A DNA stretch of 46,684 nt from a virus. The notes beneath the pieces were generated by a model. That model was not told where the DNA came from. It ran no database searches and saw only the letters and a program-made list of their open reading frames with translations. Location of the stretch: positions 1-46,684 of the IMG/VR virus record IMGVR_UViG_3300034159_000011. The stretch is one strand, 5' to 3'. Made by a program: the position numbers and the translations under genes. Shown piece after piece: positions 8,807 to 14,838 of this stretch; within the stretch, counting starts at the first letter, position 1, and every line of letters starts with the position of its first letter.

Positions 8807-9285
8807 TCTACACGCGCCGTAGAGGCGGCGGGGAATACGAACTGATTGGGGTATCAGTAGGGGAAGGTCGGACCAATATGGAAACCCGTACTGTCTACCG
8901 CGATTTGGCGACAGGCAAAATACACCACCGGTTAGCATCTGACTTTGCGCTAAACATGGCGCCTGTTGGTTCTTTCTTACCGCGTAAAGAGCTACTGCAG
9001 GAAGCGTTACGGTTACGCGACGGTGGGAAAATCTCCTGGCGAGCCGTCGCGGAGCAGCTTGGGGTGAAGATCGGCTGGCTCCACCACAACCTGGATGTAG
9101 AAGGACTCGTTTCACGCGACAATCGCCGGCCAGTCAAAGCCACGCCAGAACTCACGCTGAAAGCTGTAAAGCTTCGTGAAGCGGGGGTTTGCTGGAAGCT
9201 TATAGAACGGCAGCTAGGAGTGAACCAGCATACCTTGCGGCGCGCTGTTATCGAAGGCCGGTATCGTGGGAACGCGTCCTGCTAA
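8803..9285 (+). CDS. putative regulator with DUF1653-like head and two repeated HTH units
   Basis: 160 residues from GTG 8803. Residues 1-48 resemble DUF1653-type beta proteins (YELIGVSVG, TVYRDLATGKIHHR). The rest holds two similar helix-turn-helix units: RKELLQEALRLRDGG with WRAVAEQLGVKIGWLHHNL, and PELTLKAVKLREAGV with WKLIERQLGVNQHTLRRAV. An internal duplication of a resolvase- or MerR-like HTH is the simplest reading. It may bind DNA in the early region; it stands just before the polymerase block. Confidence 0.75.
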   Translation: MIYTRRRGGGEYELIGVSVGEGRTNMETRTVYRDLATGKIHHRLASDFALNMAPVGSFLPRKELLQEALRLRDGGKISWRAVAEQLGVKIGWLHHNLDVEGLVSRDNRRPVKATPELTLKAVKLREAGVCWKLIERQLGVNQHTLRRAVIEGRYRGNASC

Positions 9286-9318
9286 CCATGGGCATCGCTT
9301 GAATTAGGAGAAAGGAAA

Positions 9319-9777
9319 ATGACTCATGAAGAATGCAAAGCGGCCATTTTGGCGCGTGAGCGGGAGAAAGGCGTTGTTAGCGAGGCCGAGCTTCGGCAAC
9401 AACTGGCCGACGTGTCGAATGAGCGGGATGGGTTTCGGGATTTGCTTCGCTCGATGACCTTCGGCTACAAGGCGGCGCTCAGCGCTGGTCATGAACGGAT
9501 TACCGCGCTTGGCGATGATTGCGACAGCGTGGAAAGAATGCTCTCGGATAATCCGGACTACGCCAAGGCCATTGTCGCGCTCGCCCAGTCCGTGCCGGCC
9601 ACCACCAACCAGTGCGACGGATGTCAAGCAGGCAAGCCACTGGAGAATGGCAACCGTCACCGCATGGGTCGCGAGGGCGGCTATCCGGACTTCATGAGCT
9701 GCACGGCGAAGCTGTATGTGCCAGCCACAGACGAACAGGGAGGCGGGGAAATGCTCCCGCCCGTGAAAACAAATTGA
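9319..9777 (+). CDS. hypothetical protein with Cys pair
   Basis: 152 residues. Residues 1-60 are a charged helix (AREREKGVVSEAELRQQLADVSNERD), the middle is helical, and the last third contains CDGCQAGKPL and a later Cys, perhaps a zinc site. The final codon and stop overlap the TTG start of the DNA polymerase N-terminal gene, so translation is coupled to it. Confidence 0.75.
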   Translation: MTHEECKAAILAREREKGVVSEAELRQQLADVSNERDGFRDLLRSMTFGYKAALSAGHERITALGDDCDSVERMLSDNPDYAKAIVALAQSVPATTNQCDGCQAGKPLENGNRHRMGREGGYPDFMSCTAKLYVPATDEQGGGEMLPPVKTN

Positions 9778-10844
9778 ACCTCGACAAATGCATTTTCCTC
9801 GACACGGAAACCTTCTGCGAAACGCCGATCAACAACGGTACGCACCGTTATGCAGAAGGCGCCGAGATCATCATGTGGCAGTGGGCGGTCGGCGATGGGC
9901 CTGTCGAGATTCGCGATGGGGATGAAGATATAAGCGACTTGCTCGCATTGCTTGAGGATGAAAATTATGAAGTGGTTATCCATAACTCCGCCTTTGACCG
10001 TACTGTTATGCGTCATTGCGGTATCGATCTTGCTGTTGATCGAGTTTTTGACACAATGGTCTGCGCTATGGCGCATTCGCTGCCGGGCGCGCTGGGAACC
10101 CTATGTGCAATCCTCGGCGTTTCCGCTGAAAAGGCCAAGGATAAAGAAGGGCGAACCTGGATCTCGCTATTCTGCAAACCTCAACCGAAGGGTCGCAAAA
10201 TACGCCGCGCGACAAAAGAAACGCACCCGGTAGAGTGGCAGCGCTTCCGCGACTATGGCGGCCTTGACATCGAGGCCATGCGCGAGATCTACAAGAAGTT
10301 GCCGCGCTGGAACTACCGCGGCGCAGAACTGGAACTGTGGCACCTCGACCAGAAGATCAATGAACGTGGTGTGCTGATGGACCTGGACCTGGCGCATGCG
10401 GCGATTCGCGCTTCGGATCGCGCTCAGAAGATCCACGCCGCCGATGCAGTGCGTTTGACCGATGGAGCCGTGACCAGTGCCAACCAGCGCGACAAGATGC
10501 TGGAGCACATCCTGGAAGCTTACGGCGTGGGGCTCCCGGATTTGCAGATCAGCACCTTGGAGCGTCGTATCGACGATCCGGATCTGCCTATCGAGCTACG
10601 CGAACTACTAGCGGTCCGGCTCCAAGCTTCAAAAACCAGTGTGTCCAAATACAAACGCGTTCTGAATGGGGTTAGCGCTGACGGCAGGTTGCGGGGGCTT
10701 CTTGCGTTTTGTGGCGCGTTGCGCACGGGACGGTGGGCAGGAAGGTTAATTCAGCCACAAAATTTATCTCGTGGAACACTTTCTCCAGAAGGCGTGGAAC
10801 ATGCAATTGAAGAGCTTCTGAATGACGCGGAGGACTTGCTTTGA
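9774..10844 (+). CDS. polA-N: DNA polymerase I family, N-terminal piece (3'-5' exonuclease and start of polymerase domain)
   Basis: 356 residues from TTG 9774, which overlaps the upstream stop as TTGA; longer in-frame starts from 9612 lie inside another gene. The DEDDy exonuclease is complete: Asp10-Thr-Glu12, HNSAFD with Asp75, and Tyr161-GGL-Asp165. The chain continues through the thumb (ASKTSVSKYKRVLNG) to RTGRWAGRLIQPQNL, the first conserved segment of the family A polymerase domain, and stops 20-25 residues later. Motifs A, B and C are missing here and lie in the separate gene at 11377. The stop overlaps the HNH start as TTGA. The two pieces probably assemble into one working enzyme. Confidence 0.88.
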   Translation: MNLDKCIFLDTETFCETPINNGTHRYAEGAEIIMWQWAVGDGPVEIRDGDEDISDLLALLEDENYEVVIHNSAFDRTVMRHCGIDLAVDRVFDTMVCAMAHSLPGALGTLCAILGVSAEKAKDKEGRTWISLFCKPQPKGRKIRRATKETHPVEWQRFRDYGGLDIEAMREIYKKLPRWNYRGAELELWHLDQKINERGVLMDLDLAHAAIRASDRAQKIHAADAVRLTDGAVTSANQRDKMLEHILEAYGVGLPDLQISTLERRIDDPDLPIELRELLAVRLQASKTSVSKYKRVLNGVSADGRLRGLLAFCGALRTGRWAGRLIQPQNLSRGTLSPEGVEHAIEELLNDAEDLL

Positions 10845-11380
10845 AAGATCCTATAAGCCATGAAAAGCTGCTTGAGCTTTTCGATTATGACGCTGAGACG
10901 GGGGAACTTGTCCGGCGTTGCAACGTTCGCGGTTTGGGACTCAACAGAAAAGGCGATCGCCCGCGCCACTTGGGGCCGAACGGTTATGCCGCGGTAGGCG
11001 CCGACGTTAAGAAGTACCTTTATCACCGCTTGGTTTGGTTTTGGCATCACAACGAATGGCCGGAGGTAATCGGCCACGTTGACGGCGACAAGCAGAACAA
11101 CCGCATAGAGAACCTGCGCGCCTGTACTCAGTCCCAAAACCTTTGCAACGCGCAGATCCCGAGCGACAACAAGTCAGGTTTCAAAGGTGTTAGCTGGCAC
11201 ACGCCTACAGGTAAGTGGCGAGCGCGGTGCGGCCTACATAAAGTGCAGCACAATCTAGGGATCTTTGACACTCCTGAGCAAGCCGCCGAAGCGGTTCGCG
11301 CGTTCCGGCAGAACCTTCACGGCACTTACACGAATCACGGAACACACTTGAAAGACCTAGCCCGGGAGCTAATCGGATGA
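10841..11380 (+). CDS. HNH homing endonuclease with AP2 domain, inserted in the DNA polymerase gene
   Basis: 179 residues from a TTG start. Residues 60-110 form an HNH_3-type site (YHRLVWFWHH, GHVDGDKQNNRIENLR) and residues 120-165 an AP2 DNA-binding domain (GFKGVSWHTPTGKWRAR, FDTPEQAAEAVRAF). Such proteins are free-standing or intron-borne homing endonucleases. The gene exactly fills the space between the two polymerase pieces and overlaps both by 4 bases. There is no non-coding space for an intron core outside this reading frame, and the two polymerase frames differ, so an intein is excluded. Confidence 0.88.
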   Translation: MKDPISHEKLLELFDYDAETGELVRRCNVRGLGLNRKGDRPRHLGPNGYAAVGADVKKYLYHRLVWFWHHNEWPEVIGHVDGDKQNNRIENLRACTQSQNLCNAQIPSDNKSGFKGVSWHTPTGKWRARCGLHKVQHNLGIFDTPEQAAEAVRAFRQNLHGTYTNHGTHLKDLARELIG

Positions 11381-12372
11381 GCGCTACAGTAATGGAAAAA
11401 TGCTCCAGCTCTATCCGTGGGGTATTCATCGCGCCGAAGGGAAAAAAGTTTGTGATCGCCGACTTGGCGGGTATCGAGAACCGGGTATTAGCATGGCTGG
11501 CCGGTGAAGCCTGGAAGCTTGAAGCCTTCCTCGACTTTGACTTACGCGACGGCCACGACATGTACAAGCTGGCCTACGCAAAGGCATTCGGTATCGACCC
11601 TGCCGACGTAGGCAAACACGAACGATCCATCGGGAAAGTTTTGGAACTCATGCTCGGCTACGCCGGAGGCGTAGGGGCGTACATCACAGGAGCCTTGACG
11701 TACCGCATCGACCTAGAAGACATGGCGGAGAAAGCGTGGGACGCGATCCCGGAGGATACGAGGCAAGAAGCGGCTGACTTCATGGAATGGCAGCTCGGCC
11801 AGGGGCGTACACAACACGGACTATCAGACCGTGCGTTCATAGTCTGCGAAAGCTTTAAGCGCCTGTGGAGAGGTTCGAACCCGGCAATTAGCAGTTGGTG
11901 GAAAGAGCTTGAAAACATCGTGAGATCGGCGATTAACAGTCCGGGGCAGACTTACACTTGCCGTATGCATAAGATCCGCCGCGATGGCGCATGGCTCCGT
12001 ATCATGCTGCCTTCCGGCCGATATCTCTGCTATCCGTCGCCACGGGTTGAGGGCGACGGCAAAATCACCTTTATGGGGGTGAACCAATACACCCGGAAGT
12101 GGGAGCGCCTTAACACATTTGGGGGCAAAATTTGTGAAAATATTTGCCAGGCAGTCGCCCGCGATGTCCTCGCATCTTCTATGCAGCCGATTGAATCCGC
12201 CGGTTACGAAATCGTTCTGACCGTCCACGATGAGATCATCAGCGAAGCGCCGGACACCGACGAGTACACGCACGAACACCTGGCCGAACTGATGTCAGCG
12301 GGTTGCGACTGGACAGAAGGCTTACCGCTCGCCGCTGCCGGCTTCGAAGCGTATCGCTACCGAAAAGGTTGA
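11377..12372 (+). CDS. polA-C: DNA polymerase I family, C-terminal piece (catalytic palm and fingers)
   Basis: 331 residues from ATG 11377, overlapping the HNH stop. It begins with a few new residues (MSAT) and then picks up the polymerase at MEKCSSSIRGVFIAPKG. Motif A is VIADLAGIENRVLAWLAG with catalytic Asp29. Motif B keeps the exact spacing Arg83-x3-Lys87-x7-Tyr95. Motif C is VHDE with Asp285. Lys87 and both metal-binding Asp residues are intact, so this piece should be active with its partner. Only about five residues of the usual continuous enzyme seem to be lost at the junction. Confidence 0.9.
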   Translation: MSATVMEKCSSSIRGVFIAPKGKKFVIADLAGIENRVLAWLAGEAWKLEAFLDFDLRDGHDMYKLAYAKAFGIDPADVGKHERSIGKVLELMLGYAGGVGAYITGALTYRIDLEDMAEKAWDAIPEDTRQEAADFMEWQLGQGRTQHGLSDRAFIVCESFKRLWRGSNPAISSWWKELENIVRSAINSPGQTYTCRMHKIRRDGAWLRIMLPSGRYLCYPSPRVEGDGKITFMGVNQYTRKWERLNTFGGKICENICQAVARDVLASSMQPIESAGYEIVLTVHDEIISEAPDTDEYTHEHLAELMSAGCDWTEGLPLAAAGFEAYRYRKG

Positions 12373-12397
12373 CTACAAGTCGAATCTTGCATAAGCT
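12369..12397 (+). promoter_or_regulatory. putative early promoter P6
   Basis: TTGACT (12369-12374), 17 bases, TAAGCT (12392-12397), starting in the last codon of the polymerase gene. The spacer begins ACAAGT and contains CTTG six bases later, matching the inverted repeat in the putative promoter at 247. It would drive the nuclease/helicase genes that follow. Confidence 0.6.
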
Positions 12398-12423
12398 TGC
12401 GTACAAATAGAGGAGGGTTCGTG

Positions 12424-12597
12424 ATGAACAGCAGAGAGCAGTTTGAAGCTTGGGTACTAGGTCGGCAGGTTTGCAAAAAGTACGGCGCGAAGCTGAATAA
12501 GGACAGCGCAGGCTCGTATCTCGACTACCGGATAAACGACCGTTGGCTAGCGTGGAAAGCCTCCCGCGACGTGATGAAGGAGAATAGCAATGCGTAA
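12424..12597 (+). CDS. small hypothetical protein
   Basis: 57 residues, beginning MNSREQFEAWVLGR, with AGGAGG ten bases upstream of the ATG. The pattern 'REQFEAW...W.AWKASRD' is the widespread phage EaA/EaD-like module found in lambdoid accessory proteins, here in its shortest form. Function unknown. Confidence 0.75.
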   Translation: MNSREQFEAWVLGRQVCKKYGAKLNKDSAGSYLDYRINDRWLAWKASRDVMKENSNA

Positions 12598-12832
12598 TAT
12601 AGAAACGCGAGAAGGTTACGACCTGTGGGACAAAGTCAATAAATTGCCCCGATTCAATTTCTGGCGCGGCGGTGACGATGAAAAGGGCAGCGTGATCCGC
12701 GTCCCGGAAAAGCACGGCAACTGGGTCAACTTCGAAGACCTGGCCATCTTGGCGGATGAGTACCAAGAAGAAATTAACAGCCTGCGCGAACGCTTAGCGC
12801 GCCTCGAACCGAAGGAACTGCTGCCATGCTAG
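12590..12832 (+). CDS. small hypothetical protein
   Basis: 80 residues; starts inside the previous gene's end with GGAG upstream. The C-terminal third is a coiled coil (YQEEINSLRERLARLE). No family recognised. Confidence 0.7.
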   Translation: MRNIETREGYDLWDKVNKLPRFNFWRGGDDEKGSVIRVPEKHGNWVNFEDLAILADEYQEEINSLRERLARLEPKELLPC

Positions 12833-13143
12833 AACGCGATATCGAAGCGTACCTCGTCAAGCGCTGCAAAGAGATTGGCGCACTGGCAGATAAATTTGTT
12901 TCACCGCAGAGACGTTCGGTGCCCGATCGGCTGATCACGTTCGGCGGGCGCGTGTTGTTTGTTGAGCTGAAAGCGACCGGCAAAAAGCCTACCGAAGCTC
13001 AGGTGCGCGACCACGAGCGTCGGCGTGCTGCGGGTGCTGAAGTGGTTTGGCTGGATAGCACAGCGCAAGTGGACAAAGTGATCGTTGCTTTGGAACGCGG
13101 CGGTTCAGTGTCTGCGAATCTCCAATATCAGGTGTACGGCTAA
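12826..13143 (+). CDS. VRR-NUC domain nuclease
   Basis: 105 residues forming a single VRR-NUC domain. The active site is Glu4 (LERDIEAYL), then VPDRLITFGGRVLFVELKATG, which supplies the Asp and the E-x-K of a PD-(D/E)XK fold, and Gln-rich KPTEAQVRDHERRRAAG. Small phage VRR-NUC proteins are thought to be structure-specific nucleases and often stand beside an SNF2-type helicase, as here. Its stop shares a base with the next ATG (TAATG). Confidence 0.88.
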   Translation: MLERDIEAYLVKRCKEIGALADKFVSPQRRSVPDRLITFGGRVLFVELKATGKKPTEAQVRDHERRRAAGAEVVWLDSTAQVDKVIVALERGGSVSANLQYQVYG

Positions 13144-13427
13144 TGAAAACAGAAATCGAAGTAGCATATGACGACGCTATGGAAGCGAGTAACGAATTTG
13201 GGTATGCCTGCATGACAGCGGGTGACGTTATCCGCCATCAAGCCGCTGAACTCGTAGCATTTCGGGAAGCGCTGGAAGAACCTTTCCAACTGGTATTCGA
13301 AGGGTACAGCCGCCCCGGTACAGACTTCGCCTCGGACGCCGCTTGGGCTACGTGGCAACACGCCCAGTTGACCAGAGCGTTCAGCCTCTTGCAAAAGATC
13401 CGCAAAGGGCCGGGTAATGGCAATTGA
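13143..13427 (+). CDS. hypothetical protein
   Basis: 94 residues between the VRR-NUC and helicase genes, overlapping both. Mostly helical with several Trp and Phe residues in the second half (AAWATWQHAQL). No family recognised. Confidence 0.7.
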   Translation: MKTEIEVAYDDAMEASNEFGYACMTAGDVIRHQAAELVAFREALEEPFQLVFEGYSRPGTDFASDAAWATWQHAQLTRAFSLLQKIRKGPGNGN

Positions 13428-14838
13428 TTTCATACCGCGCCGCTATCAGGAACTGATCGGCGGCTTCATCGTCGGCAATAAGCGTTGTGCTGTCTGGAGT
13501 TCTCCAGGGACAGGCAAGACAGGTGCCACTTTATCGGCGCTCGAAGACCTGACCTTCGTTGAAGACGTGTATCCCGCGCTTATAGTTGCGCCCCTGCGTG
13601 TGGCACGAACCACCTGGCCAAACGAGGTGCGCAAGTGGAACCACCTCAAGCACCTGCGCGTCGTTGTCGTCACCGGCAGCCTGAAGGAACGCCGCGCTGC
13701 GTTACGCATTCCAGCGGACATCTACACGACCAACTTCGAGCAATTACCGTGGTTGGTTGAAGAGTTAGGTGACCGCTGGCCCTTCAAGACCGTTGTAGCG
13801 GACGAGGCGACGAAGTTGAAGGGGTTTCGCCTGCGGCAGGGTACACAGCGCGCCAAGGCGCTCGCCCGGGTCGCGCACACGAAGATCAAGCGCATCATCC
13901 TGTTGACCGGTACGCCCAGTCCTAACGGCTTACAGGATCTGTGGGGGCAGATGTGGTTCGTAGACAAGGGCGATCGACTTGGCCGAACCTTTGACGCTTT
14001 CAAGCAGCGTTGGTTTCGCGCTTCGCATACCGGGTTCGGCGTAGAGGCGACCGACGAAGCGCAGGGCCAGATCCAAGCAGCGCTTAAAGACGTGTGCATC
14101 ACGATCGACGCGGCCGACTGGTTCGACCTTGAGGCGCCGATCATCAACCGGATCATGGTCGAACTACCGGCCAGTGTGAAGGTCATGTACAAGCAGATGG
14201 AGAAACAGTTCTTCATGGAACTGGAAAGCGGAGCACATATCGAGGCCATGAACGCCGCAGCCAAGTCGATGAAATTGATGCAAGTAGCCAACGGAGCCAT
14301 GTACCTAGAAGGCGGCGAAGCATGGGAGGTTGTGCATAACGAGAAGCTTGACGCGCTCGAAGAGATCGTCGAGGAAGCAGCCGGTATGCCGATCCTTTGC
14401 CTATATAACTTCAAAAGCGACCTGGCGCGACTCAAGAAGCGTTTCCCGGACGGCATCGACCTTGGTGACGGAAAAGGTGCGCGCGACGGGGTAGACGGTC
14501 TGTCAAGAGCTCAGCGCGGCGAGGGGCGCATCTGGTTTGGCCACCCAGCTTCCATGGGCCATGGCGTTGACGGGCTCCAATACCACACGAATATCATGGT
14601 GTTCTTCGGTTACTCGTGGTCCCTGGAGAACTACCTACAGGCTATCGAACGCATTGGGCCTACTCGCCAATTGCAGGCCGGGTTCAAGCGTCCCGTGTTT
14701 ATGCACATGATCATGGCGGCGGATACCGTGGACGAACTGGTACTGGAGCGCCTGCACAGTAAGCGCGAGGTGCAGGACATCTTGATGGAAGCGATGAAAG
14801 AACGCGGGTTCAAAACAATCGAAGAGGATGCAGCATGA
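13417..14838 (+). CDS. SNF2/DEAD-box family helicase
   Basis: 473 residues. Motif I is SSPGTGKTGAT near residue 28, motif II is DEAT (VVADEATKLKG) near 129 instead of DEAH, motif III is LLTGTPSPNGL near 165, and the second RecA lobe ends with LENYLQAIERIGPTRQ, the motif VI region. It is compact and lacks extra domains, as usual in phages that pair it with a VRR-NUC nuclease. It probably remodels forks or recombination intermediates. It starts within the preceding gene and is ATGA-coupled to the next. Confidence 0.88.
   Translation: MAIDFIPRRYQELIGGFIVGNKRCAVWSSPGTGKTGATLSALEDLTFVEDVYPALIVAPLRVARTTWPNEVRKWNHLKHLRVVVVTGSLKERRAALRIPADIYTTNFEQLPWLVEELGDRWPFKTVVADEATKLKGFRLRQGTQRAKALARVAHTKIKRIILLTGTPSPNGLQDLWGQMWFVDKGDRLGRTFDAFKQRWFRASHTGFGVEATDEAQGQIQAALKDVCITIDAADWFDLEAPIINRIMVELPASVKVMYKQMEKQFFMELESGAHIEAMNAAAKSMKLMQVANGAMYLEGGEAWEVVHNEKLDALEEIVEEAAGMPILCLYNFKSDLARLKKRFPDGIDLGDGKGARDGVDGLSRAQRGEGRIWFGHPASMGHGVDGLQYHTNIMVFFGYSWSLENYLQAIERIGPTRQLQAGFKRPVFMHMIMAADTVDELVLERLHSKREVQDILMEAMKERGFKTIEEDAA

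Follow-up and report, generated by a model that had tools for sequence, protein, structure and literature searches.

A family A DNA polymerase encoded by two genes, with exchangeable genes at their junction, in a clade of phages related to BPP-1

When a free-standing endonuclease gene is found between the two parts of an essential gene, it must be asked whether the endonuclease divided the gene or entered a gene that was already divided, and whether the two parts still make up one enzyme. This question is raised by the window analyzed here (an IMG/VR record, 46,684 bases at its full length), in which three overlapping genes at 9774-12372 encode the first part of a DNA polymerase (N), an HNH endonuclease, and the second part of the polymerase (C).

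The divided polymerase gene of the window

The N protein, whose TTG start (MNLDKC...) is kept in relatives, contains the 3'-5' exonuclease domain and the thumb-side region, continues through the QPQNL motif and the next helix, and ends in ...NDAEDLL, whereas motifs A, B, and C of family A polymerases are all located on the C protein. Pfam analysis detected DNA_pol_A_exo1 in N (1.1e-7) and DNA_pol_A in C (6e-13). The middle gene is an ORF of its own for an HNH nuclease with an AP2 DNA-binding domain (HNH_3, 3.5e-12; AP2, 2.3e-7, which is just under the AP2 cut-off), and it matched PHROG 99 at 6.6e-63. Each junction is a 4-base overlap, and the start positions modulo 3 are 0, 2, and 1, so that the three ORFs lie in three different frames (Table 1).

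On the profile of PHROG 17 (DNA polymerase), N covered positions 670-989 and C covered positions 993-1232, and these nearly contiguous matches indicate that no polymerase residues are missing. Consistent with this, the halves span the whole of the intact polymerases of BPP-1 (Bbp42) and BcepC6B, with only about 7 residues replaced at the junction; N was 60-61% identical to both polymerases and C was 60.7% identical to that of BPP-1. The window polymerase is a BPP-1-like family A DNA polymerase encoded in two ORFs, the gap between which is filled by an HNH_3/AP2 gene. A preliminary description of this DNA had already placed the polymerase on two proteins with the HNH gene exactly filling the gap, with TTGA and ATGA overlaps, differing outer frames, motifs A to C on the C protein, and intact catalytic residues in both parts, and the ORFs, the Pfam and PHROG matches, and direct reading bear this out. 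The alignment to an intact relative that it had proposed for locating missing residues revealed the replacement at the junction and nothing lost.

By megablast among sequenced phages, no near relative of the window was detected. A segment outside the polymerase genes (12590-12813) showed 80% DNA identity to Pseudomonas phage phiAH14a, which is a weak hint of a Pseudomonas-like host.

Table 1. Features of the polymerase locus in the window
Feature	Coordinates	Strand	Evidence
Polymerase subunit N, 356 aa (TTG start; TGA stop at 10842-10844)	9774..10844	+	Pfam PF01612, PHROG 17
GGAGGA, Shine-Dalgarno-like, 6 nt 5' of the HNH TTG start	10829..10834	+	Direct reading; conserved in relatives
Junction 1, TTGA start/stop overlap, N to HNH	10841..10844	+	Sequence
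Free-standing HNH_3 + AP2 endonuclease, 179 aa, slot cargo (TTG start; TGA stop at 11378-11380)	10841..11380	+	Pfam, PHROG
GGGAG, Shine-Dalgarno-like, 8 nt 5' of the subunit C ATG	11364..11368	+	Direct reading
Junction 2, ATGA start/stop overlap, HNH to C	11377..11380	+	Sequence
Polymerase subunit C, 331 aa (ATG start)	11377..12372	+	Pfam PF00476, PHROG 7766/10285/17
Co-conversion-like tract around the HNH gene, window vs L149	10690..11590	.	DNA identity

Distribution of the split and turnover of the inserted genes

Relatives were collected from IMG/VR by scans with the N and C halves and with alignments of the halves. The 37 records in which both halves were readable, all of them metagenome contigs and denoted here by L numbers, form together with the window a clade set of 38. 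The polymerase gene was split at the same point in 36 of the 38, the remaining two being fused alleles. No insert was present between the halves in 10 records, and an insert, usually overlapping at both ends, was present in 26. In the empty alleles, the N stop and the C start overlap as ATGA (L157, L158, L160, L163, L166, L169, L041, and L137), TGATG (L151), or TAATG (L181). More distant relatives carry an intact polymerase (45 IMG/VR loci together with BPP-1, APSE-1, and Caulobacter RW), inteins and a frameshift in locus L095 aside. As judged from the aligned loci, the division of the polymerase in this clade is ancient and has been maintained whether or not an insert is present.

Two candidates for further cases were rejected, namely the outgroup locus L095, in which a single-base frameshift lies inside C, and Escherichia phage CR01, in which the ORFs of three annotated 'DNA polymerase I' pieces neither overlap nor couple. 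Scans of GTDB genomes found no prophage relatives. The gene pair is more alike between phages at its outer ends, where the initial ~190 nt of N (9774-9970 in the window) and the final ~180 nt of C (12190-12372) were mostly 80-97% identical, compared with only 60-85% in the polymerase interiors and unalignable outer flanks in the pair checked (L149); these border segments were read as conserved handles.

The HNH gene family of the window occupies the slot in five records only (the window, L149, L154, L155, and L148), where the coding sequence is interrupted by the free-standing endonuclease gene and its parts are retained. Its close homologues in IMG/VR (4 records, 85-98% identical) were every one in the same slot. 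A different NUMOD4-HNH gene was found there in L156 and L161, DNA methyltransferases of PHROG families 67, 363, or 757 in 15 records, and PHROG 12600 or 839 proteins or a tiny ORF in the rest, with DUF7220 alongside the methyltransferase in two records. Across the records, no fewer than six gene families besides the HNH gene of the window occupy the slot, most of the cases being DNA methyltransferases. At least 22 changes of cargo class were counted on the tree, against a mean of 26 with shuffled labels, and this near equality suggests that genes in the slot are replaced frequently. At the same loci, families related to the cargo were located on either side of the polymerase as well, at distances from a few hundred to a few thousand bases, which suggests that the junction is one of several slots served by a shared pool of accessory genes. 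Methyltransferase cargo families flanking the polymerase elsewhere were located at +54 (L142), +55 (L137), +1236 (L144), and -241 (L147) relative to it.

Between the window and L149, DNA identity was 92-100% over the HNH gene and about 150-200 bases on each side, and 78-88% beyond; in this one pair, the raised-identity tract centered on the HNH gene is as would be expected of co-conversion. The HNH gene probably arrived by homing or recombination. The junction was rejected as a special recombination breakpoint, as identity correlations were 0.67 across it and 0.65-0.68 inside the halves, and mosaicism is no greater there than within them.

The subset of relatives with a second junction comprises nine records (L196, L041, L207, L197, L198, L145, L137, L221, and L238). 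Here the C half closes with ..MPRIEAWRP, or RIETWRP in the case of L137; preceded by GAGGAT, a third ORF (61-65 codons) begins inside this end in the -1 frame. The overlap was exactly 13 nt in all eight of the nine records that were closely read. The resulting protein of 61-65 aa bears motif C (VHDE) and is conserved at the protein level, with dN of about 0.01 against dS of 0.4-0.9 in most pairs. No other family A polymerase match was detected in L197, L137, and L207. The window has the unsplit form at this site (about 12190-12230).

In-frame intein-like inserts were observed in the C half at ENC/TQA or after MELA in L199 (L026), L207 (L039), L137 (L057), and L145; the same DNA contains an HNH-like ORF in another frame (read in L026, L039, and L057). 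Comparable inserts are present in APSE-1 P45/P46 (L002; the HNH-like ORF is annotated P46) and Caulobacter RW (L003).

Order of events and relation between the pieces

The split records and the two fused ones formed one clade in both trees (support 100/98 for C and 100/100 for N), which are affected by recombination and give differing histories for N and C. One explanation of the locus, the one put forward in the preliminary description, is that a polymerase gene until then intact was broken by insertion of the HNH homing endonuclease gene; nrdA of Aeh1 was split by mobE in this way. The HNH gene does sit exactly between the halves, its close homologues are confined to this slot, and HNH homing genes are known gene splitters according to a review (PMC2988022). 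However, 10 relatives are split with no insert and 21 carry other genes, most of these unrelated, so that the HNH-free relatives, among which intact alleles were to be sought, are themselves still split. The HNH gene is also absent from the deepest branches, L181 (empty), L126 (tiny ORF), and L135 (PHROG 12600), being confined to derived subclades. Since these branches lack it, the HNH gene of the window was most likely inserted into a gene split beforehand, and we consider it unlikely that this gene made the break, although some older, since-lost endonuclease could have made the original split. The notion that the pieces reflect assembly errors or pseudogenes in decay, for which the metagenomic origin of the contigs and the plain frameshift in L095 might be cited, is scarcely credible: the same junctions recur in dozens of contigs from different metagenomes with overlaps constant at 4 nt and 13 nt, the third-piece pairs mostly show the low dN given above, and the median dN/dS is 0.093 for N and 0.085 for C (0.065-0.093 for HNH), indicating purifying selection.

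It could further be supposed that the halves stay apart, with N a 3'-5' exonuclease working independently and C a polymerase in its own right or a minimal one, since the break roughly parts the exonuclease and thumb from the palm-fingers and each half has its own motifs. This is a shade less likely again than the preceding idea of a break made by the HNH gene. N also holds the thumb-side region and the QPQNL motif of the polymerase domain, a motif C piece of 61-65 aa cannot work alone, and, as the same review recounts, the split products gp43A and gp43B of Aeromonas phage 25 purify together and have activity. Moreover, the polymerase has become a single chain again at the same place in L150 and L153. 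The split relatives that surround these fused alleles on the tree share 94.5-98% identity with them and are empty or carry an HNH gene, a methyltransferase, or PHROG 839. Where intact outgroups have linkers of four residues, the fused alleles have a longer and dissimilar one (EDL-IGGPT-VM). A clade of all split rows that excludes the two fused alleles was rejected by the AU test for C (p = 1e-35), with a borderline result for N (p = 0.06). L150 and L153 are best read as re-fusions of a split gene, which argues for the halves being parts of a single enzyme. Finally, one full-length polymerase might still be made by intron or intein splicing, programmed frameshifting, or stop readthrough, inteins and introns being known in related phage polymerases (APSE-1, Caulobacter RW, L199, L207, and L137). 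This we regard as very improbable. An Rfam search of 9000-13500 at E up to 5 found no intron; clean excision of the cargo yields the empty allele, whose halves remain in different frames; and the N end (..EDLL/V and stop) and C start (M-x-x-V-M) have no intein motifs. An X XXY YYZ heptamer is absent from the overlap window in nine of ten empty alleles, the tenth (L181) having one about 88 nt upstream; a frameshift could not span cargo of 0.3-1.2 kb; and the N frame of the window meets a further stop 9 bases beyond its TGA.

Expression from separate ORFs is instead very probably coupled through Shine-Dalgarno sequences and stop/start overlaps. The overlapping C start is preceded by GAGGA or GGAAGA in the empty alleles, the strength of the signal varying as GGAAGA replaces GAGGA in some, and a comparable purine tract precedes C in nearly all relatives. 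The TTGA and ATGA overlaps of the window agree with the earlier proposal that translation is coupled through all three genes.

The reading of N and C as parts of one enzyme is consistent with residue conservation and structure prediction. The exonuclease residues D10, E12, D75, Y161, and D165, as well as D29/E34 of motif A, R83, K87, and Y95 of motif B, and H284-D285-E286 of motif C, were invariant across the aligned clade members. Modeled with AlphaFold2 (pLDDT 84, pTM 0.79), the naturally fused L150 protein has a Klenow fold and matches Bst, Taq, and Klenow fragments with Z of about 20-22. Both breaks map to loops of this model, the first at residues 351-361 between two helices and the second near residue 631, where helix 606-631 gives way to the motif C strand (635-640). 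The protein thus has motifs A-C, the catalytic residues, and the Klenow-like fold of family A polymerases, and differs in not being encoded as a single polypeptide, a feature that is customary in the family without defining it. A search of 16 records, the window among them, revealed no second family A polymerase, although these records may be incomplete. From the conservation, the re-fusion, and the loop position, we infer that N and C reassemble into one active enzyme. The preliminary description had likewise suggested a natural two-part polymerase split in a loop between QPQNL and motif A, and the L150 model and the failure to find a second intact polymerase agree with it.

Comparison with known split genes and meaning

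The nearest precedent is gene 43 of Aeromonas phages 25 and 44RR, which is split into gp43A and gp43B with seg43 or IC-UTS between them, as described in the review (PMC2988022), according to which the gene may have been split before the endonuclease invaded it. As in the window, two genes separated by a homing endonuclease gene or other DNA encode a phage replicative polymerase; unlike it, the polymerase belongs to family B, the phages are T4-like, and the insert is a GIY-YIG seg gene or an untranslated spacer. A pool of methyltransferase cargo, a third piece, and re-fused alleles are not reported for phage 25/44RR in that account. The preliminary description had cited mobE as splitting a DNA polymerase, but on the same account mobE splits nrdA in Aeh1, and the polymerase precedent is seg43 in gene 43 of Aeromonas phage 25. 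The Aeh1 case (Friedrich et al. 2007, as summarized in PMC2988022 and PMC10448857), in which both parts are retained and active, resembles the present one in having a free-standing HNH endonuclease gene inside an essential gene; it differs in that the gene encodes ribonucleotide reductase and the split is attributed to the endonuclease insertion, whereas here the split exists without the HNH gene.

In Methylophilales (OM43) phages MEP401 and MEP402, a small ORF separates the two ORFs that encode a family A polymerase, a split present in most group I genomes for which the authors left splicing open (PMC10580990; OP830906). Reading of the MEP401 sequence placed the break between the LQN motif and motif A (the first ORF ends in ..NLQNFDGEIKTLFLSRYGE and the second begins with MILNADAKALEW), about 20 residues further downstream than in the window. 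Its insert is a 77-aa ORF separated from the halves by 1-base gaps instead of overlaps, and the polymerase is only distantly related; the MEP401 split is apparently an independent case. Among named homologues, BPP-1 Bbp42 and BcepC6B gp32 are the closest (about 51-61% identical over both halves) but are single uninterrupted genes. The polymerases of APSE-1 (P45, with overlapping HNH gene P46) and Caulobacter phage RW are of the same kind and have also been invaded by mobile elements; unlike in the window, their inserts are in frame near motif C (intein-like, ENC/TQA) and the gene is not split. No literature combining methyltransferase cargo with a split polymerase was found, nor was a description of a split maintained throughout a clade together with exchangeable cargo of methyltransferases and endonucleases, re-fusion in nature, and a very small protein bearing motif C.

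In summary, the locus is likely to represent an ancient multi-subunit family A polymerase whose coupled junction serves as a slot for mobile accessory genes, with the pieces predicted to reassemble. In a clade of uncultured phages akin to Bordetella phage BPP-1 in their replication genes, the polymerase would be obligately multi-subunit. Adjacent genes encode an exonuclease/thumb half and a catalytic palm-fingers half as separate polypeptides; their translation would be coupled through a Shine-Dalgarno sequence and a 4-base ATGA (or TGATG/TAATG) overlap, and the halves would fold together as one polymerase, the break lying in the loop between two helices, between QPQNL and motif A. The coupled junction would be a permissive slot, in which accessory genes with like overlaps at both ends keep the coupling unbroken, and these genes, mostly DNA methyltransferases and HNH endonucleases, turn over fast. 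The HNH-AP2 endonuclease gene of the window probably entered the already split gene by homing or recombination, and in a subset of relatives a second junction with a 13-nt overlap divides the catalytic half once more, leaving motif C on a protein of 61-65 aa. On balance, we favor the fuller view that these are obligate two- and, in the subset, three-subunit polymerases, that the junction is a place of exchange from which methyltransferases and endonucleases are cycled into the replication operon, and that re-fusion can undo the split.

These results keep apart two things that are usually conflated, the splitting of a gene and the presence of an endonuclease in the split. A replicative enzyme has stayed split through the diversification of a clade, with or without an insert and with swappable cargo at the junction, while being re-fused in two records and divided a second time just before a catalytic motif. 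How and why essential enzymes become divided, and whether a coupled junction acts as a safe harbor for methyltransferase genes, can be tested in this clade, and its natural two- and three-piece polymerases may provide material for protein engineering.
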